Source of the DNA: Chloroflexi bacterium RBG_13_46_14
GTDB lineage: Bacteria > Chloroflexota > Dehalococcoidia > Dehalococcoidales > UBA2162
Length of the DNA stretch: 7,913 nt
Assembly (NCBI GenBank): GCA_001796415.1
Contig: MGML01000188.1
Coordinates: 1 to 7,913 of the forward strand
Direction of reading: 5' to 3'
The notes beneath the pieces are model-generated. The model worked only from the letters and a program-made list of their open reading frames with translations. It ran no database searches and was not told the DNA's origin. Positions 1 to 7,913 of the stretch are shown one piece after another. Made by a program: the position numbers and the translations under genes. How positions within the stretch are numbered: the first letter of the stretch is position 1; every line of letters starts with the position of its first letter.

Positions 1-2
1 CC

Positions 3-245
3 GATACTCCCCGGTCGGCGGATATGGTAATCGGCACGATTAGAGAAGACGAGGGTGTCAAGGCAATCAGTGCCGACATTTCCAGGATTGCCGAGGAGCT
101 TATTCCGGGCGGGAAAGCCCTGCTATCGGCCAGTTCAACCGCCATAACCCGCATCGTGACAGGATTACAGAACCAGAACAGGCTGACCGTGAAGAAGAGA
201 GAGAAACGCAGGGGCAACAGCCTGCTTATCGTCGAACGGAGATAA
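3..245 (+). CDS. C-terminal fragment of an unidentified protein, possibly a class I methyltransferase fold
   Basis: An open frame enters from the left edge with no stop and ends in TAA at 243-245, so about 80 C-terminal residues are visible. An internal ATG at 24 is probably not the start, because the frame is open back to the edge and no ribosome binding site precedes it. The order of predicted elements is a strand (MVIGTIRE), a helix ending in IPGG, a strand (KALLSASS), a helix, and a basic C-terminal strand pair (KKREKRRG, then SLLIVER). A helix ending in PGG followed by a hydrophobic strand is typical of the late part of class I SAM-dependent methyltransferases, and the basic tail would suit an RNA or DNA substrate. 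This assignment is inference from fold order only, since the SAM-binding half lies outside the window. Codon use resembles that of gyrB. Confidence 0.55.
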   Translation, partial: DTPRSADMVIGTIREDEGVKAISADISRIAEELIPGGKALLSASSTAITRIVTGLQNQNRLTVKKREKRRGNSLLIVERR

Positions 246-351
246 GCGGACCACCTGCTTACCAGGGCCAGGGCAATCTCTGCCGTTACCTTTACTTACC
301 GCGGGATATCCGCCGAAGGTGTACCAGATATTACCGACTGAGCTGACCGAC

Positions 352-1215
352 TCATACTTTCTTTGCTACAACCGCCAACCAGTCGCCGCCTTCTTCACAG
401 GGTGTGCCATCCAGGTCGTTCCAGATCTGCAGGATAGAGAAGCCGGCTTTTTCCAGTACGTCTCTTATAGTCTTGAGTGAATAATCGCGAAACCAGTTAC
501 GGTATACCGTTACTTTTTTCTCATCTACAATAATATACTGGTCGAGCCAGACATCATCATCGGGGTAGTCGAACCCTTCCTCGAGGAACAGGTGTTTACC
601 CGGACGCCAGAAACCGCCATCGAACAGGTACCAGCGGTTTCCCGCTCCTTCTTTATTCCTCAACTCTCTCGTAGTGACATCGAATATAAACAGGCCTTCA
701 GGCTTCAGAGCTTTATGCATCAGCGCAAGGAACATGTCTCGCTTTTCATCCGAAAATGTATTTAGTTCGCCGTATATCTGCATTACGGCGTCGAACTCAC
801 CAGAAAAGTCGACGCTGAAAAAGTCGGCAAGACGGTAATCGATATCCAGGCCGTTTCCCACGGCGTATTTAATCGCGTATTCTATGGACCTGCGGGATAT
901 GTCAACCCCGGTAACTATCAGTCCTTTCCGGCAGAGTTGGCTCGCATAAAGTCCCGGACCGCATCCAAGGTCAAGGACCCGGTCGCCTTCTTTCAGAATA
1001 CCGGTGAATGTCAGGTGTTCGACCTGGGCGTCGATAGCTTCAGTCTTTCTACTGGCTGCTTCGTGTTCCTGGCTGAGGTGTGCCTGCAGCATACCTATCG
1101 ATATATAGTCGTCATCCCAGAATGTTTCTTCGCCCGGCTCGAACAGGGAAGGTTTTCTGGAATATTCGTGTACTGTCTTTAAAATATCTTCAATATTAAT
1201 AATAGTTACTCCCAT
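352..1215 (-). CDS. class I SAM-dependent methyltransferase (287 aa)
   Basis: This cytosolic Rossmann-fold methyltransferase has the SAM-binding motif I VLDLGCGPG at residues 80-88. The acidic end of strand 2 follows in GVDIS (103-107). The motif II/III region has LADFF (129-133), motif IV is FDAVMQIYGE (141-150), and KPEGLFIFDV (171-180) is the usual strand-5 region. The C-terminal part, about residues 195-287, is rich in Trp, Asp and Tyr and probably forms the substrate cap. The substrate cannot be read from the sequence. The frame opens upstream at a GTG (1278), but I prefer the ATG at 1213-1215. A good promoter overlaps the extra 21 codons, and those residues (rich in Cys and Pro) look unlike the family. 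No clear Shine-Dalgarno precedes the ATG, so the start is moderately secure. The gene is transcribed divergently from gyrB. Confidence 0.85.
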   Translation of the reverse strand: MGVTIINIEDILKTVHEYSRKPSLFEPGEETFWDDDYISIGMLQAHLSQEHEAASRKTEAIDAQVEHLTFTGILKEGDRVLDLGCGPGLYASQLCRKGLIVTGVDISRRSIEYAIKYAVGNGLDIDYRLADFFSVDFSGEFDAVMQIYGELNTFSDEKRDMFLALMHKALKPEGLFIFDVTTRELRNKEGAGNRWYLFDGGFWRPGKHLFLEEGFDYPDDDVWLDQYIIVDEKKVTVYRNWFRDYSLKTIRDVLEKAGFSILQIWNDLDGTPCEEGGDWLAVVAKKV

Positions 1216-1247
1216 ATTTATTATGGGCGGACAGGACAACCCGCATA

Positions 1248-1276
1248 GTATGAACAGGTTTCTTGCGTTTGTCAAC
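1248..1276 (-). promoter_or_regulatory. promoter of the - strand methyltransferase
   Basis: On the - strand a consensus -35 TTGACA (1276-1271) is followed after 17 nt by CATACT (1253-1248), a 4/6 match to the -10 box. Transcription would start near 1240, leaving a leader of about 25 nt before the ATG at 1215. This is the main argument against the longer GTG-initiated frame at 1278. Confidence 0.55.
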
Positions 1277-1277
1277 A

Positions 1278-1354
1278 CGCCGCCTGCGACCAGAACAGTC
1301 CCATACCTTTAGTACAAAGACGGTGTTGGTTGGAGGAACGGCGAGCAGGCGGCG
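1278..1354. repeat. 10-bp inverted repeat pair in the divergent spacer
   Basis: The arm CGCCGCCTGC at 1278-1287 is the exact reverse complement of GCAGGCGGCG at 1345-1354, with 57 nt between them. The arms are GC-rich in an otherwise mixed spacer. The spacing is too long and T-poor for an intrinsic terminator. It could be part of a structured RNA, a small non-autonomous repeat, or chance. Confidence 0.4.
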
Positions 1355-1436
1355 AATCTCGCAAAGACATTAGTACCAACAAGATGTACCCTCAACACTG
1401 TACTTTTAAAAACTTCACTTTACGCTCGATTTATGG
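1279..1436. other. divergent intergenic spacer without a supportable gene
   Basis: The gap between the two divergent genes (1216-1589) is 374 nt. It contains the methyltransferase promoter, the long-range inverted repeat, the gyrB promoter and a gyrB leader of about 140 nt. Between 1290 and 1430 I see short repeated words (CAAAGAC at about 1315 and 1362, TAGTAC at about 1310 and 1371) and a 7-bp inverted pair TGTTGGT/ACCAACA (1324-1330 and 1375-1381). There is no coding frame with a credible start and no tRNA or rRNA signature. Confidence 0.5.
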
Positions 1437-1442
1437 TATAAT
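1414..1442 (+). promoter_or_regulatory. gyrB promoter with extended -10
   Basis: A perfect -10 TATAAT lies at 1437-1442 and is directly preceded by TGG (1434-1436), an extended -10 element. At 17-nt spacing the -35 is TTCACT (1414-1419), a 4/6 match. Transcription would begin near 1449, giving a leader of about 140 nt before the gyrB ATG. The long leader leaves room for regulation, but I see no recognisable riboswitch in it. Confidence 0.7.
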
Positions 1443-1571
1443 AGAGTTCGATGCTAACTTATAAATCCGCATATACTACCGGTTGCCTTTCGGAGTTATT
1501 AGCAAGCACCTGTTCATCCCAAAAAAATCTACGCTGTGTTCATTTGTCCGGTCACTTTTCAGGCACTATAT

Positions 1572-1577
1572 AAGGAG
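1572..1577 (+). promoter_or_regulatory. gyrB ribosome binding site
   Basis: AAGGAG lies 12 nt before the ATG at 1590. The spacing is on the long side, but a TAA stop in frame at 1578-1580 rules out any earlier start, so this site fixes the gyrB start. Confidence 0.75.
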
Positions 1578-1580
1578 TAA

Positions 1581-3524
<1,944 letters not shown>

Positions 3525-3577
3525 CCATCACACGCTAAGTTAATGTATGTAATACGGAAATCAATGGAGGGATGATT

Positions 3578-3634
3578 ATGACTGCGATAAAGTGTGACGA
3601 ACTGGTAATAACATCCCGGAAGGTTTCCGGCTAG
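3578..3634 (+). CDS. 18-residue ORF with strong RBS: leader peptide or 5' remnant of a lost gene
   Basis: An ATG at 3578 is preceded by GGAGG (3566-3570) at an ideal 7-nt spacing. It opens a frame encoding MTAIKCDELVITSRKVSG before a TAG at 3632-3634. The first ten residues resemble the start of ABC-transporter ATP-binding proteins, which often begin with a short Met-x-Ala-Ile-x-Cys stretch before the first strand. The product could therefore be the stump of a deleted gene. It could equally be a genuine small peptide encoded between gyrB and the terminator. The translation signal is better than that of several full-length genes here, but the length is too short to settle the matter. Confidence 0.35.
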   Translation: MTAIKCDELVITSRKVSG

Positions 3635-3661
3635 ATATAATTTAACAATCTTAAATATATT

Positions 3662-3690
3662 GCCGTTCCTTCGGGAGCGGCTTTTTGTTT
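3662..3690 (+). terminator. rho-independent terminator after gyrB
   Basis: An 8-bp stem GCCGTTCC/GGAGCGGC with one G-U pair closes a C(UUCG)G tetraloop (stem-loop 3662-3681). It is followed at once by the T-rich tract 3682-3690. This is a textbook intrinsic terminator for the gyrB transcript. Its tract ends only 30 nt before the next start codon. Confidence 0.9.
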
Positions 3691-3702
3691 ATTCTTATAA
3701 TA

Positions 3703-3708
3703 AAGGAG
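3703..3708 (+). promoter_or_regulatory. ribosome binding site of the second methyltransferase
   Basis: AAGGAG lies 12 nt before the ATG at 3721, the same spacing as at gyrB. It selects 3721 over an in-frame TTG at 3685, which lies inside the T tract of the terminator. Confidence 0.7.
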
Positions 3709-3720
3709 TATCAACAAACA

Positions 3721-4467
3721 ATGGATTTTTTTGAATTGATGGATATATCACATAAATACCTGGAGATACTGAATCCGTCATCACCTGAGAAAATACTCGC
3801 AGTCGGCGACGTACTTGACCTTAATGCTGACAGCCGCGTGATCGATTTCGGCTGCGGCAAGGGCGAATTGCTGGCACTCTGGGCAGAAAAATTCGGAATC
3901 TCGGGTACGGGTATAGATATCAGCGAATACTTTTATAAAACAGCAATTAACAGGATAAAAGGAAAAAAACTGGATAAGCGTATAGATTTGGTATGTGCGA
4001 ACGGCAGGGAGTACGCGCCAGATGATCGGGTTTATGACGCAGGTTTATGTATCGGCGCCACCTTTATCTGGGATGGTTTCAGACCAACTATCCAGGGTTT
4101 AAAGCGATTCGTCAAGCCAGACGGCAGGCTGGTTATCGGTGAACCTTACTGGCTGAAGAGCGATATTCCACAGGATTATATCGACCATGCGGCGCCACCC
4201 GGCACCTTGTACGAACATGAGATTTTACAGGTCTCAAACGAAGAAGGGTATGATATAGAGTACATGGTCAGGGCGAGTCACGATGACTGGGACAGGTACA
4301 ACGCGGGAAACTGGCGCGGTCTGGTGCGATGGATAAGCGATAATCCTGATCATCCTGAACGTCAGGATGTTATCGACCGCCTTCGGAAAGACCAGTACAA
4401 TTACCTCCGGTATGAGCGGGAGTTCCTTGGCTGGGCTATCTATGTGTTGAATCCGATGAGGTATTAG
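3721..4467 (+). CDS. class I SAM-dependent methyltransferase (248 aa)
   Basis: This soluble Rossmann-fold methyltransferase has motif I VIDFGCGKGEL at residues 40-50 and strand 2 ending in GTGIDIS (62-68). It has an Asn-Gly turn in the motif III region (VCANGREY, 91-98), VYDAGLCIGATF (104-115) in the motif IV position, and VKPDGRLVIGEPYW (131-144) as strand 5. The start of the protein (LMDISHKYLEILNPSSPEKI) is a helical lid seen in small-molecule methyltransferases. The C-terminal part, about 150-248, is rich in Tyr, Trp and Asp and probably closes over the substrate. The acceptor cannot be deduced. It shares only the generic fold with the methyltransferase at 352-1215, so the two are not a recent duplication. 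No convincing promoter lies between the gyrB terminator and this gene. Confidence 0.87.
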   Translation: MDFFELMDISHKYLEILNPSSPEKILAVGDVLDLNADSRVIDFGCGKGELLALWAEKFGISGTGIDISEYFYKTAINRIKGKKLDKRIDLVCANGREYAPDDRVYDAGLCIGATFIWDGFRPTIQGLKRFVKPDGRLVIGEPYWLKSDIPQDYIDHAAPPGTLYEHEILQVSNEEGYDIEYMVRASHDDWDRYNAGNWRGLVRWISDNPDHPERQDVIDRLRKDQYNYLRYEREFLGWAIYVLNPMRY

Positions 4468-4507
4468 TGTTATTACTCTTATTAATCGGATGTAAAAGTC
4501 TTTAGCA

Positions 4508-4527
4508 CAAGAGTATAGTTACTCTTG
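4508..4527. promoter_or_regulatory. perfect palindrome overlapping the island promoter, probable operator
   Basis: The arms CAAGAGTA (4508-4515) and TACTCTTG (4520-4527) are exact reverse complements around the 4-nt centre TAGT. The right arm overlaps the first three bases of the proposed -35 box. A third copy of the half-site word TTACTCTT lies at 4473-4480. This arrangement suits a dimeric DNA-binding regulator that blocks RNA polymerase. As a terminator it would be poor, because the stem is AT-rich and no T run follows. Confidence 0.5.
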
Positions 4528-4554
4528 AAATATATTATTTTATAAGTATATATT
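4525..4554 (+). promoter_or_regulatory. promoter of the AT-rich three-gene block
   Basis: TTGAAA (4525-4530), a 5/6 match to the -35 box, is followed after 18 nt by TATATT (4549-4554), a 5/6 match to -10. Transcription would start near 4561, about 27 nt before the ATG at 4588. The region is AT-rich, so other -10-like words exist nearby, for example TATACT at 4563-4568. Confidence 0.5.
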
Positions 4555-4587
4555 ATTAACAGTATACTAAGCTGTTAGGAGTAAACA

Positions 4588-4932
4588 ATGGGAAGAGTCC
4601 CAATCACATTGATGGGCTTCAGATGTGAACGTTGTAGTCACGAATGGTTTCCGAAAAAAGAAAATAAAGAACCTAGAGTTTGCCCCAGGTGTAAAAGCCC
4701 TTATTGGAATGTTCCGAAAACAAAGTCGCCTATGTCATATCAAGAATTTGCCAATACCATCAAATCAGTACTGGATAAGGAAGGAAATCCTATGACTTGG
4801 ACAGAAATCCGGACCAAAGCTCATCTTCCTCAAAAATGGCCGAATAATAAATGGGTGTATCGTATGGAAGATAATATAGGATTAGTGCGAGAAAAAGATC
4901 ATAATGGTATAATTCGTTGGCGCATTCAATAA
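4588..4932 (+). CDS. zinc-ribbon protein with putative C-terminal winged-helix domain (114 aa)
   Basis: The N-terminal part carries two CxxC knuckles, Cys13/Cys16 and Cys32/Cys35, in FRCERCSHEW and VCPRCKSPYWN, which form a rubredoxin-like zinc ribbon. After a short linker, residues 50-114 look like a compact winged-helix domain. A helix (YQEFANTIKSVLDKEG) leads to TWTEIRTKAHL, which fits a helix-turn-helix entry. Next comes the basic, aromatic stretch KWPNNKWVYRMEDNIGL, and two closing strands (REKDHNGIIRWRI) form the wing. AGGAG at 4577-4581, 6 nt before the ATG, supports the start. It is the first gene of the AT-rich block, behind a promoter with a palindrome, so it may be the regulator of the block or a DNA-targeting partner. 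I do not recognise a named family for the full length, and the function is inference. Confidence 0.8.
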   Translation: MGRVPITLMGFRCERCSHEWFPKKENKEPRVCPRCKSPYWNVPKTKSPMSYQEFANTIKSVLDKEGNPMTWTEIRTKAHLPQKWPNNKWVYRMEDNIGLVREKDHNGIIRWRIQ

Positions 4933-4951
4933 ATACTTCGGAGTCTGTACA

Positions 4952-5476
4952 TTGGTAGAATCATATCTCAAACTTCCCGAAAAAAAAAGAGTAGACCAGA
5001 TTCGTAGTAAAAGAAGATGGAATATACTTCACCACACATCAGAGCCAGATTTTTTTACCATTGGATATTCGGGCAGAAATATAAATGAGTTTATTGATTC
5101 GCTCCAAATGGCTGGTGTGGTAACTTTAGTAGATATACGATTTTCACCAGTAAGTCGATATAAACCAGAATTCAGTAAGAGTAATCTGGGAAAAAAACTT
5201 GAAACTCACGGATTAATATATATACATCGACCAGATTGGGGAGTACCCCGCGAGATACGGGCATTTAGTATAGGTAAGTCAAATCGTGATGATATATGGA
5301 ATTGGTATGACACATATATTCTTCCGAATATCATTAAGAAAAATCTTGATTCTTTCTTTAATACAATGGATCATCCTATTGTTCTTATGTGTTCGGAATT
5401 AGATCCTACTGAATGCCATAGACATAGAATTTTTCTCGGCCTTGAAAGATTAGGATTTACAGGTTGTGATTTGTAG
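4952..5476 (+). CDS. DUF488-family protein (174 aa)
   Basis: The body matches the DUF488 family (Pfam PF04343). It starts with TIGYSGR (36-42), followed by helix EFIDSLQMAGV and LVDIRFSPVSR (59-69). The phenylalanine-lysine segment PEFSKSNLGKKL (72-83) comes next. The hallmark late motif is LMCSE (145-149) with CHRHR (155-159), which holds the two conserved cysteines. Family members are small soluble proteins with solved structures but no firmly assigned reaction. The Cys/His/Arg cluster suggests a catalytic or metal-binding site. The start is TTG at 4952 with CGGAG 8 nt upstream, and the first internal Met is too far in. The N-terminal 30 residues are basic and precede the core domain. It lies 19 nt after the zinc-ribbon gene and 23 nt before the next, so the three are probably co-transcribed. 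Sampled codon composition is near 32% GC. Confidence 0.88.
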   Translation: MVESYLKLPEKKRVDQIRSKRRWNILHHTSEPDFFTIGYSGRNINEFIDSLQMAGVVTLVDIRFSPVSRYKPEFSKSNLGKKLETHGLIYIHRPDWGVPREIRAFSIGKSNRDDIWNWYDTYILPNIIKKNLDSFFNTMDHPIVLMCSELDPTECHRHRIFLGLERLGFTGCDL

Positions 5477-5492
5477 TTCATATACATATAAT
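5464..5492 (+). promoter_or_regulatory. possible internal promoter giving a leaderless mRNA
   Basis: TTGTGA (5464-5469, 4/6) and a perfect TATAAT (5487-5492) are 17 nt apart. Initiation would then fall at about 5499-5500, exactly on the ATG of the next gene, which has no Shine-Dalgarno. A second TATAAT overlaps at 5492-5497. The extreme AT content makes chance matches easy. Confidence 0.3.
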
Positions 5493-5499
5493 ATAATAA

Positions 5500-6279
5500 A
5501 TGGAAACCTATGAAAAATGGGTAAAGAAAAAAGTTCTTATTACAGTAAGAACTTATCCGGTTCCTTCTCGTAAATCAATTGAAGTTTCCTGTACAGCAGG
5601 GATTACTGAAGATGGAGAATGGATTAGGTTATTCCCGGTTCCCTACAGGTTTTTAACGCAGGATAAACGTTTTGTTAAATATCAATATATTGAAGCAGAA
5701 GTAACCAAGTCCCACTCTGATTTTAGACGTGAAAGTTATAAACTAAACGTTGATTCTGTAAATATACTAGGTCAAAAACTCTCAACAGAAAACAAATGGT
5801 TGAAAAGAAAAGATATAATATTTCCTTTGATGAGTGATTCACTTTGCTCTCTAAAATCAGAGCGTGATACTAATAAGTATCCAACTCTCGGCTTCTTCAA
5901 ACCCCGAGTGATTACAGGCTTAAAAATAGAATCTACTATAGATCAATGGAATGATGATGAATTGACAAGCCTCAGGCAGTATCCAATGTTCGATAATATA
6001 CCACAACATCAACTTGAAAAACTCCCCTATAAATTTAGTTACCAATTCAAATGTAATGAAAAAAACTGTACAGGGCACGAAATTGAATGCACAGATTGGG
6101 AAGTAGGTGCATCATTCCTATCATGGAGAAGGAAATATGGTAGACAATGGGAACAAAAATTCAGAGATAAATATGAAACCGAAATGGCTTTAGGTAAAGA
6201 TATTCATTTCTTTGTAGGCACGATAAACAATCACCCTGGTGAATGGCTGATTGTTGGTTTGTTCTATCCACCAAAATAA
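5500..6279 (+). CDS. 259-residue protein of unrecognised family with a Cys/His cluster
   Basis: I do not recognise a named family. The N-terminal part begins with a strand (KVLITVRTYPVPSRK, 11-25) and EVSCTAGITEDGEWIRLFPVPYRFL (28-52). This looks like a small beta-barrel with a Gly-rich turn and a basic loop. The middle (about 60-180) is mixed, with many Lys, Arg and aromatic residues. The C-terminal part has a striking cluster: Cys185, Cys190, His193 and Cys197, then Asp199-Trp200-Glu201. After a basic helix (SWRRKYGRQWEQKFRDKY) it closes with two strands, IHFFVGTINN and WLIVGLFYPP. The Cys/His spacing suggests one zinc ion, and the following Asp and Glu could be catalytic. No signal peptide or membrane segment is seen. 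No ribosome binding site precedes the ATG. Order and spacing suggest that it works with the DUF488 protein. Sampled composition is about 35% GC. Confidence 0.78.
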   Translation: METYEKWVKKKVLITVRTYPVPSRKSIEVSCTAGITEDGEWIRLFPVPYRFLTQDKRFVKYQYIEAEVTKSHSDFRRESYKLNVDSVNILGQKLSTENKWLKRKDIIFPLMSDSLCSLKSERDTNKYPTLGFFKPRVITGLKIESTIDQWNDDELTSLRQYPMFDNIPQHQLEKLPYKFSYQFKCNEKNCTGHEIECTDWEVGASFLSWRRKYGRQWEQKFRDKYETEMALGKDIHFFVGTINNHPGEWLIVGLFYPPK

Positions 6280-6395
6280 TCTTGATTATAACCTAGCTGC
6301 GTTCCTTCTTCATCATTATTTTTTAGCCTTTTTCATGGATACGATGAACCTCCTTTCCAAGCGTGTTCCTATTCCTTCAGAGAAGAAAATACAAT

Positions 6396-6424
6396 TTGAC
6401 ATATTAGAATATTCGTTCTATTAT
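6396..6424 (+). promoter_or_regulatory. promoter of the alpha/alpha-toroid gene
   Basis: A perfect -35 TTGACA (6396-6401) and TATTAT (6419-6424, 5/6) are separated by exactly 17 nt. Transcription would start near 6431, leaving a leader of about 60 nt before the ATG at 6490. The promoter sits at the right edge of the AT-rich block and reads out of it. No terminator-like hairpin was seen between 6280 and 6396. Confidence 0.7.
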
Positions 6425-6489
6425 TTATCAAATTTATGCTAAAAACTCATCCGAATATCAACCATGGTTAATAATAAGGCTTTGTTCTT

Positions 6490-7503
6490 ATGACTGGCTG
6501 GAAAGACAAACTGAATGGAGATCCAGTTCCGTGGCTGCTGGAGAATGACAGGAGCCAGCCAGCCATCCGCTATTATGCTTTGCGTGATATCCTCGGCCGG
6601 GACGAGAATGACAAGGAAGTCAAAGCTGCTAAGGCGGCTATCATGACAAGCGGACCTGTACCGGTAATCCTGGAGGAATATTGGGACAAGCCAGGATTCA
6701 GTTTCAGACCTAAATACCGCAGGACTGAATATACTCTCATTAATATGGCGCAACTCGGTGCGGACGGAGCTGATCCGCGCATTCGCGCCGGCTGTGAAAT
6801 CCTGCTTTCCAGATACATCGACAGCAATGGCGGTCTGTCATTTACCGGCGCACTTTCTGATTTCTCGCATTGCACGGCGGGTATCATGGGGGCAGCTCTG
6901 ATAGATTTCGGCTGGCTTGACGATCCACGACTGCAGACAGCAATGGAATGGCTGGCTCAGACTATTACCGGAGAAGGAGTGGCTGACGCTTCGAGCCGTG
7001 ACACAAAAAAACGTTACGAAAAGTCCGGGTATTCATCTCCTCCATTCGCCTGTTCCGACCGCAATGCTAATCTGCCATGCGCCTGGGGAGCAATCAAGGC
7101 AATGATTGCCTTGAACAAGGTACCTCAGGCACAGCGGACCAAGAGTATGCATGAGGCTATCAAACTGGGTGTGGACTTTCTCCTGAGCCGTGACCCGGCG
7201 GTCGCCGATTACCCCTTTAACACGGGGAACAGGCCCAGCTCAAGGTGGTTCACGTTCTTCTATCCACTCGGCACCAGCGCCGATGTACTTCAGAACCTGG
7301 AGGTTCTGGCAGCGATGGGCCAAGCCCAGAATCCCAGATTGGCCAATGCGCTGGACCTGGTCATCAGCAAGCAAAACCGGCAGGGACGCTGGCGGCTGGA
7401 ACATACCTACGTGGGCATACAAGAAAAGAAAGGGCAACCCAGCAAGTGGATCACCCTGAGAGCTTTACGCGTATTGAAAGCGGCTTATCCTGAGAAAGGA
7501 TAA
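6490..7503 (+). CDS. prenyltransferase/squalene-cyclase-like alpha/alpha-toroid protein (337 aa)
   Basis: The protein is nearly all helical with repeated helix pairs ending in Gly or Asp turns. Examples are DPVPWLLEN near 11-19, AIRYYALRDILGR (25-37), GCEILLSRYID (101-111) and EAIKLGVDFLLSRD (222-235). SKWITLRALRVLKAAYP (318-334) closes the chain. Conserved-looking pieces include DFSHCTAGIMGAAL (124-137) and FACSDRNANLPCAWGAIKAM (186-205). The layout is that of terpenoid-cyclase or protein-prenyltransferase toroids. The DxDD acid motif of class II cyclases is not seen, so a cyclase reaction is doubtful. From memory, similar Chloroflexota proteins are often mislabelled as a nitrogen fixation protein NifH, but there is no P-loop or Fe-S cysteine pattern here. 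The start is the ATG at 6490 with a weak AAGG 10 nt upstream. No signal peptide is seen. The gene converges on the flavoprotein at the right edge. Confidence 0.8.
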   Translation: MTGWKDKLNGDPVPWLLENDRSQPAIRYYALRDILGRDENDKEVKAAKAAIMTSGPVPVILEEYWDKPGFSFRPKYRRTEYTLINMAQLGADGADPRIRAGCEILLSRYIDSNGGLSFTGALSDFSHCTAGIMGAALIDFGWLDDPRLQTAMEWLAQTITGEGVADASSRDTKKRYEKSGYSSPPFACSDRNANLPCAWGAIKAMIALNKVPQAQRTKSMHEAIKLGVDFLLSRDPAVADYPFNTGNRPSSRWFTFFYPLGTSADVLQNLEVLAAMGQAQNPRLANALDLVISKQNRQGRWRLEHTYVGIQEKKGQPSKWITLRALRVLKAAYPEKG

Positions 7504-7516
7504 TTTCGCTGCAGAA

Positions 7517-7531
7517 TTGAGATATTCTCAA
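7517..7531. terminator. weak hairpin between convergent genes
   Basis: TTGAGA (7517-7522) and TCTCAA (7526-7531) form a 6-bp stem with a 3-nt loop in the 52-nt gap between the two convergent stop codons. The stem is AT-rich and only a short T run (GTTT) follows, so it could act as a weak bidirectional terminator at best. Confidence 0.3.
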
Positions 7532-7555
7532 GTTTGTCCGGATACTCTAGAATTA

Positions 7556-7912
7556 TTAAGCCTTGAGTTTCTTTACGAGGTGGGCGATGTTTTTACCGAA
7601 GTTCCAGGCGGTCTGGAGGCCTTCTTCATCGTCGTTTACTTCGCCTTTTTCACGGCCGAATGAAATGTTCCAGTAGGTCGAGCCAGGCATGTAGAATCCG
7701 AGTATATGGAACCAGAAAAGCAACTGGGCGTGGGTGAAATTCTGTCCGGCGCGCCGGGCGACTACCAGCGGTCCGCCGACTTTCCCCGCAAATACTCCGC
7801 GCTGACCGCCAATATACCCGACCCTGTCCATCAGAGATTTTATCAGCGAAGTCGCCGAACCGTAATATACCGGCGATGCCAGTATTATCGCGTCCGCCGC
7901 TTTCAGTTTTTC
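7556..7912 (-). CDS. flavodoxin-fold NAD(P)H-dependent FMN reductase or iron-sulfur flavoprotein, C-terminal part
   Basis: The - strand frame runs from the right edge to a TAA at 7558-7556, giving 118 C-terminal residues with the N-terminal part missing. The visible chain begins KLKAADAIILASPVYYGSAT, the classic FMN-binding loop of the NADPH-dependent FMN reductase family (Pfam PF03358). It continues with SLIKSLMDRVG, then FAGKVGGPLVVARRAGQ, the strand and loop near the isoalloxazine ring. HAQLLFWFHILGFYMPGSTYWN resembles the helix and loop of iron-sulfur-flavoprotein-like members. The tail is the final helix of the flavodoxin fold. The CxxC-type iron-sulfur motif of true Isf proteins would lie in the missing half, so that subclass is open. 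An internal ATG at 7831 is not the start, because the conserved loop lies upstream of it. The gene probably encodes a soluble redox protein. Confidence 0.87.
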   Translation of the reverse strand, partial: EKLKAADAIILASPVYYGSATSLIKSLMDRVGYIGGQRGVFAGKVGGPLVVARRAGQNFTHAQLLFWFHILGFYMPGSTYWNISFGREKGEVNDDEEGLQTAWNFGKNIAHLVKKLKA

Positions 7913-7913
7913 G

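Follow-up and report, generated by a model that had tools for sequence, protein, structure and literature searches.

The phage defence candidates (PDCs) are putative candidates obtained via 'guilt-by-embedding', mostly without experimental validation (PMC12988326). Two of those in PADLOC-DB, PDC-M19 and PDC-M45, both found by others, appear to have a common design, in which a dual-OB protein (a probable one in PDC-M19) accompanies a DUF488 protein; the dual-OB assignment of M19B is, as far as we searched, an addition of the present analysis. Here, we describe a three-gene cassette in a 7,913-nucleotide stretch of DNA from Chloroflexi bacterium RBG_13_46_14 (contig MGML01000188.1, positions 1 to 7,913 of the forward strand), which as a whole is called the window. 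The genes encode a zinc-ribbon/winged-helix protein (ZnR/wHTH, or ZnR), a DUF488 protein and a 259-residue protein that we call U259. Judged from its sequence, the cassette is a split form of PDC-M19. The initial annotation presented it as a candidate undescribed system, but PADLOC-DB already lists the DUF488-U259 pair as PDC-M19A/B. The term PDC-M19 was found in no main text of the literature searched; the name DUF488 occurs in 25 papers, a search for PF04343, the DUF488 model, gave no match, and one for DuOB, the dual-OB domain of PDC-M45, returned unrelated words only.

Analysis of open reading frames (ORFs) places the three genes on the same strand at 4588-6279, with intergenic gaps of 19 and 23 nt, as the initial annotation had it:

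4588-4932, forward strand: ZnR/wHTH gene, 114 amino acids, ATG start
4952-5476, forward strand: DUF488 gene, 174 amino acids, TTG start
5500-6279, forward strand: U259 gene, 259 amino acids, ATG start

All three genes are real, each being conserved across phyla. The TTG start of the DUF488 gene is plausible because a relative (L001; loci carry numbers with the prefix L) has a start codon at the matching alignment position.

Linkage was assessed in 71 loci. Besides the window, these comprise 24 loci obtained from 84,980 species genomes by one pattern-limited scan, 29 from a survey that covered 400 genomes of Chloroflexota, and 17 stretches of plasmids or phages. The survey gave loci for 30 of its 47 matching genomes, one locus being a repeat; the remaining 17 genomes (15 with partial matches, two with full-length ones) are outside the counts, as are the repeats L025, L026 and L056-L059, and loci L060-L063, which came from the search with M19A. 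U259 matches were found in 23 plasmid and seven phage records, of which 16 and one, respectively, entered the counts (U259 is identical in all seven phages). In 63 of the 71 loci a DUF488 gene is located no more than 175 bp from U259, in three gene orders; as the loci were selected by U259, this count gives the frequency of U259 with DUF488 and not the reverse. ZnR adjoins the pair in 19 of the 71, in Chloroflexota, Acidobacteriota, Nitrospirota and Vulcanimicrobiota. Of the functional unit proposed earlier, these figures bear out that the three genes form a unit in several phyla, and we hold the anatomy and linkage of the cassette to be practically certain.

Two of the loci counted as having no DUF488 gene, L021 and L024, are stretches that begin inside U259. 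At L012 and L126, neither DUF488 nor an ASCH-type neighbour was seen beside U259, and at L014 a DUF488 of a different subfamily is directly upstream. Thirteen chosen U259-carrying genomes contain 24 DUF488 matches, and 12 of these adjoin U259; in eight of these genomes the sole match is the one beside U259, and the genome of L031 has none. The pair is carried by bacteria and archaea, by plasmids of both and by a Gordonia phage. Its spread is patchy: U259 is matched in 47 of the 400 Chloroflexota genomes at E <= 0.001, partial matches included. A scan of Viral_contigs gave 14 pattern matches to U259, none confirmed as a relative.

U259 is matched by three PDC-M19B models of PADLOC, the best at E 2.3e-70 over positions 3-262 of 269, and by phrog_25907 at E 1.2e-53. 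Its family comprises 1420 proteins at E <= 0.001, and an alignment of 49 sequences has 19 invariant columns. No Pfam family reaches its cut-off in the window protein or in the 49 members of alignment A3, and no sequence match at a meaningful E was found in the PDB. The predicted model (pLDDT 92.6, pTM 0.90) resembles telomere-end, RPA and HIN-200 proteins, which have tandem OB folds (Foldseek, VIA), at fold level only, with whole-model TM-scores of about 0.2-0.35. The domains and a candidate zinc site are arranged as follows:

about 5512-5781, forward strand: predicted OB1 of U259, residues ~5-94
about 5782-6273, forward strand: predicted OB2 of U259, residues ~95-258
6052-6090, forward strand: candidate zinc site C185-x4-C190-x2-H193-x3-C197, in OB2

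The Cys3His site is invariant across the 31 sequences of alignment A1. Across the family at large, the full set of four residues is confined to the clade of the window, L016 being an exception inside that clade. U259 is, on this model, a probable tandem-OB protein; a main reason for trusting this reading of the fold is that PDC-M45 pairs DuOB with DUF488. We consider it likely that U259 binds nucleic acid.

The DUF488 protein matches PF04343 at E 3e-21 (76.7 bits, against a curated cut-off of 22.2) and is the one DUF488 match among the eight window ORFs scanned. Its predicted model has a pLDDT of 89.7, and the residues named in the loop below are invariant in alignment A2:

about 5081-5428, forward strand: DUF488 domain, match to PF04343
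5390-5422, forward strand: conserved loop C147-x-E149...C155-H-R157

The resemblance to cysteine phosphatases is weak. The protein probably belongs to the rhodanese/cysteine-phosphatase superfamily, and we lean towards the view that it is a cysteine-dependent phosphate enzyme, a putative assignment. PADLOC matches it to PDC-M19A at E 7e-27 over profile positions 137-278 of 294, that is, to the carboxy-terminal half only, and to a second M19A model at E 2.5e-14 (positions 87-218 of 234); PDC-M45B/C are matched less well. The initial annotation spoke of two effectors, for which one probable enzyme and one probable nucleic-acid-binding protein is the better description.

The ZnR/wHTH protein contains two parts:

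about 4624-4692, forward strand: zinc ribbon, with C13, C16, C32 and C35 invariant (Cys4)
about 4735-4923, forward strand: putative winged helix, read by eye

A Pfam scan returned zinc ribbons only, all sub-threshold. The carboxy-terminal part is a probable winged helix, a call made from the sequence and from source names such as 'predicted Zn-ribbon and HTH transcriptional regulator', no profile match being significant. Of the DNA-binding regulator or adaptor first proposed, the invariant Cys4 ribbon is supported and, by eye, the winged helix. Full-length ZnR matches occur in three of the 400 Chloroflexota genomes, every one beside U259, and partial matches only in 18 further genomes. That ZnR might be the split-off amino-terminal domain of the fused M19A was considered and is rejected on present evidence, the compared sequences having no similarity.

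The constant core of these loci is DUF488 plus U259, and the extra part varies between a ZnR/wHTH gene, a fused amino-terminal domain, a ParB-HTH part and none. In the window type, ZnR, DUF488 and U259 follow one another. In the Chloroflexota survey an amino-terminal domain is fused to DUF488 (about 300 residues in all) and U259 follows; three such domains were scanned alone and two gave sub-threshold matches to SocA/Panacea (E 0.11 and 0.12), an identity that we do not claim. In ten of the 71 loci DUF488 and U259 are convergent, often with overlapping 3' ends, on plasmids of Streptomyces canus, Pseudomonas, Burkholderia, Massilia, Rhizobium, Pseudochrobactrum, Arthrobacter and Paraburkholderia, in Gordonia phage Nymphadora and in one Chloroflexota genome. 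The Sulfolobales plasmids pSOG1 and pBEU9E1 have a ParB_N, HTH_ParB and DUF488 fusion, U259 and a small gene that looks PD-(D/E)XK-like by eye, with no Pfam match above cut-off. In two cyanobacterial plasmids DUF488 is downstream of U259 on the same strand, and on plasmids of Streptomyces griseorubiginosus, Sulfitobacter and Azospirillum it is upstream, with no ZnR. As far as we searched, this variety of arrangements and the split ZnR form are additions of the present analysis. The fusions and the phage DUF488 gene are:

L131, 1951-2997, and L132, 1939-2985: ParB_N, HTH_ParB and DUF488 fusions beside U259, Sulfolobales plasmids
L127, 4840-5505: Nymphadora gp42, labelled 'HipA toxin' in NC_031061, actually a DUF488-domain protein

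Nymphadora U259 is gp43; it follows the immunity repressor gene gp44 on the same strand, with one base shared, and converges on gp42. Repressor and integrase genes flank the pair. The phage records that match U259 do not include Kita, a phage of the same genus, whose annotated genes between integrase and repressor are different. Gordonia phage CarolAnn has a proven defence system whose genes are co-transcribed with the repressor and for which an ion channel has been proposed (PMC6426606). U259 of Nymphadora may likewise be co-transcribed with its repressor, whereas the genes differ; in the available parts of that study Nymphadora appears only as an attacker, and they hold no experimental support for the DUF488-U259 pair.

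ASCH domains were met beside U259 at loci with no DUF488: a ParB-ASCH fusion at positions 6694-7743 of L016 (ASCH E 4e-9) and sub-threshold matches at 8762-9112 of L019 and 2425-2793 of L031 (E 0.007 and 0.008). These neighbours hint at a link to modified bases or RNA.

A U259 tree of 69 rows, made by a quick method with SH-aLRT support only and drawn with a midpoint root, puts all 19 ZnR-bearing rows on one side of a branch with support 97. This side has 26 rows, from Chloroflexota, Acidobacteriota, Nitrospirota, Vulcanimicrobiota and one Pseudomonadota. Rows from Acidobacteriota and Vulcanimicrobiota are mixed with each other, and the starred branches do not force transfer. The nearest rows to the window U259 are all from Chloroflexota, with 67% identity to L001 (Dehalococcoidia), which points to a Chloroflexota host.

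The cassette has a guanine-plus-cytosine (GC) content of 0.353, against 0.526 in gyrB, 0.466 in the upstream methyltransferase gene, 0.498 over 1-4467 and 0.529 over 6490-7913; the contrast first reported therefore stands, with flanks slightly below the 53-55% then given. Low GC runs on to about 6440-6489, in keeping with the end near 6440 noted earlier. In all 28 loci compared the cassette is poorer in GC than its flanks, by a mean of 0.083 in the 27 others and by 0.152 in the window, the third largest offset of the 28; cassette GC tracks flank or host GC (r = 0.81, n = 27), and in 11 of 16 loci tested the cassette is the lowest-GC stretch of its length. Low GC is largely a property of the family and is therefore weak evidence of recent transfer into the window, whose strong bias is no proof. 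Of the horizontal acquisition proposed at the outset, the low GC has become the less telling argument; carriage of the core by plasmids and a temperate phage is better evidence of mobility.

Two possible control sites are located upstream of the cassette, and one promoter-like site downstream:

4508-4527, no strand assigned: perfect inverted repeat, 8-bp arms, 4-nt centre, possible operator overlapping the -35 element
4525-4554, forward strand: promoter-like site TTGAAA-18-TATATT, 10 of 12 matches
6396-6424: strong promoter-like site, 11 of 12 matches, ahead of the gene at 6490-7503

Both upstream sites of the promoter with a palindrome read earlier are present, but neither is clearly above chance and they are suggestive only: eight promoter-like sites are observed in the region against 8.6 +/- 3.1 expected in shuffled sequence, and shuffling the 130-bp upstream stretch gives a repeat with arms this long in 16 of 300 trials. 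Inverted repeats upstream of L001, L002 and L003 are longer (arms of 13, 17 and 11; 0 of 300 shuffles each), and are possible operators or terminators. Those of L001 and L003 have 4-nt centres, and that of L002 is a 34-nt perfect palindrome with no spacer, at about 6963-6996, upstream of ZnR. The remaining 13 of the 16 relatives tested have no inverted repeat above chance (closest L022, 20 of 300 shuffles). Boundary repeats in the window are short, imperfect pairs, none flanking both sides of the cassette, and a tRNA search there found none. The AT-rich tail at 6280-6489 (GC 0.314) holds no convincing gene. The gene at 6490-7503 gives a squalene-hopene-cyclase match below the Pfam cut-off and nothing more; the closest relatives of the gene downstream of the cassette are 54% identical. 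A by-eye gyrB (2-1096 of L016) lies about 7 kb upstream of U259 in a Chloroflexi contig, compared with about 2 kb in the window, which may be chance.

Built on the gene linkage, the conservation and the predicted folds, from which we infer DNA binding, catalysis and defence, our proposal is a mobile nucleic-acid-conflict module, a split form of PDC-M19 made of a dual-OB DNA holder and a cysteine-phosphate DUF488, to which we give an even chance. The tandem OB of U259 would hold DNA, with single strands or ends as the most likely targets; DUF488, via C147 and the C-x9-R loop, would transfer phosphates, remove them or modify termini in some other way, its substrate being the nucleic acid held by U259 or a related nucleotide; and ZnR/wHTH would target the pair to DNA or repress the operon. 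The benefit would probably be defence against invading phage or plasmid DNA, a putative role on which our opinion is evenly divided. Weighing against a simple defence-island story is the PADLOC scan of gene neighbourhoods (E <= 1e-10), which covered 144 genes located up to 6 kb from 16 loci, 119 near ten Chloroflexota loci and 135 control genes in ten stretches of the same ten Chloroflexota genomes. Genes were called as greedy longest ORFs of at least 100 residues, those above 1200 residues and the U259-only loci L012, L016 and L019 being excluded. The families matching any gene numbered 91, 163 and 60, respectively; the 25 listed per set are mostly redundant restriction-modification and kinase models, none matching more than two genes. 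Type I restriction-modification models match two genes in the surroundings of the first set, and a type IIG enzyme matches two in those of the Chloroflexota set; neither is among the 25 families listed for the control. Clear enrichment of defence genes around U259 loci was thus not seen in this low-power scan, and the closeness to known defence genes suggested as a check was not clearly raised.

The missing enrichment would suit a housekeeping operon for stress or for RNA or nucleotide processing, with no part in conflict, as would U259 of L012 and L016, which sits among by-eye core genes with no DUF488; the patchy spread, the plasmid and phage carriage and the GC below that of the surroundings in every locus compared make this explanation improbable. 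A further alternative is a module for DNA-end protection, repair or anti-restriction that belongs to mobile elements, has also settled in chromosomes and helps incoming or replicating plasmid and phage DNA instead of attacking it. Plasmids of many genera and temperate phages carry the pair, and the plasmid neighbours include SSB, RadC and DUF932, RecT with a PD-(D/E)XK gene, ParB fusions and KfrA; some of these plasmid surroundings have the look of DNA processing. The phage pair, however, lies between repressor and integrase, a region with different genes in Kita, and for 54 of the 71 loci the source is the window or a genome contig and not a plasmid or phage record, although some contigs may be plasmids; we regard this alternative as rather unlikely. 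A toxin-antitoxin-like pair, in which DUF488 damages nucleic acid or nucleotides, U259 restrains it and ZnR/wHTH autoregulates, would fit a small, compact, same-strand, AT-rich cassette with a possible operator at its promoter and the weak, below cut-off SocA/Panacea likeness of the amino-terminal domain in two of the fused proteins. It is hard to reconcile with a large, well conserved U259 and with the convergent loci, an order that to our knowledge is unusual for such pairs, and seems to us a poor prospect.

Returning to the nucleic-acid-conflict module, a bolder version is tentative and doubtful: a domain-spanning immune module whose effector, DUF488, would be no nuclease but a cysteine-dependent phosphate enzyme. 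A tandem-OB clamp like that of telomere proteins would present DNA termini to it, and the targeting parts (ZnR/wHTH, a fused domain that is perhaps Panacea-like, or ParB-HTH) would be interchangeable. If defence is the benefit, this would be anti-phage chemistry on DNA termini instead of cutting. DUF488 is a Pfam domain of unknown function, one lineage of which now has a gene-by-gene link to a probable dual-OB family that lacks annotation; the linkage in bacteria, archaea, plasmids and phage leads to a concrete biochemical hypothesis, with nucleic-acid ends as substrate and C147 as nucleophile.

At the level of fold, the predicted tandem OB arrangement of the U259 model resembles that of telomere end-binding proteins, RPA, CST and HIN-200. 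The window DUF488 protein matches PF04343 only, and neither the DUF488-N3a nor the DUF488-N3i model of Pfam. A 2023 paper by Burroughs and Aravind on the rhodanese-phosphatase superfamily reportedly has a classification into which these names (active/inactive) fit, and may already discuss part of the DUF488-dual-OB pair; the conserved cysteine loop of the window protein is said to be shared with its DUF488 class. An archaeal ParB-CTPase-fold/DUF488-HTH fusion binds CTP, as a published survey reports (PMC12704722). The Sulfolobales fusions beside U259 are similar in build, whereas the window has no ParB.

PDC-M45 likewise has a dual-OB protein (DuOB, PF22557) beside DUF488: in the three scanned of the seven loci L064-L070, PDC-M45A is the Pfam 'Dual OB-containing domain' (E 2e-68, 6e-61 and 5e-49). 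Each of the seven has two DUF488 genes, where the window has one. DuOB has no match at E <= 1 in the window and none in the 49 members of alignment A3, and U259 has no significant profile match to it (hhalign P 0.068). When 129 frames were searched with the U259 hidden Markov model, two PDC-M45A-type proteins ranked first (E 0.014 and 0.56); in the reverse search no U259 ranked first. With scores this weak, remote homology between U259 and DuOB is not claimed.

The closest likeness is to PDC-M19. U259 corresponds to M19B and the DUF488 domain to that of M19A, and the two are adjacent, with A preceding B and a 23-nt gap between them. The fused Chloroflexota loci have the same gene order. There, M19A is one protein of about 300 residues with its own amino-terminal domain, which is absent from the window; the window has instead a separate ZnR/wHTH gene upstream of DUF488, and the U259 of its clade has the Cys3His candidate zinc site that the fused clade lacks. 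Because the amino-terminal domain of M19A (profile positions 1-136) is unmatched and ZnR is dissimilar to it, we describe the window cassette as a split variant of PDC-M19 and not as a standard member.
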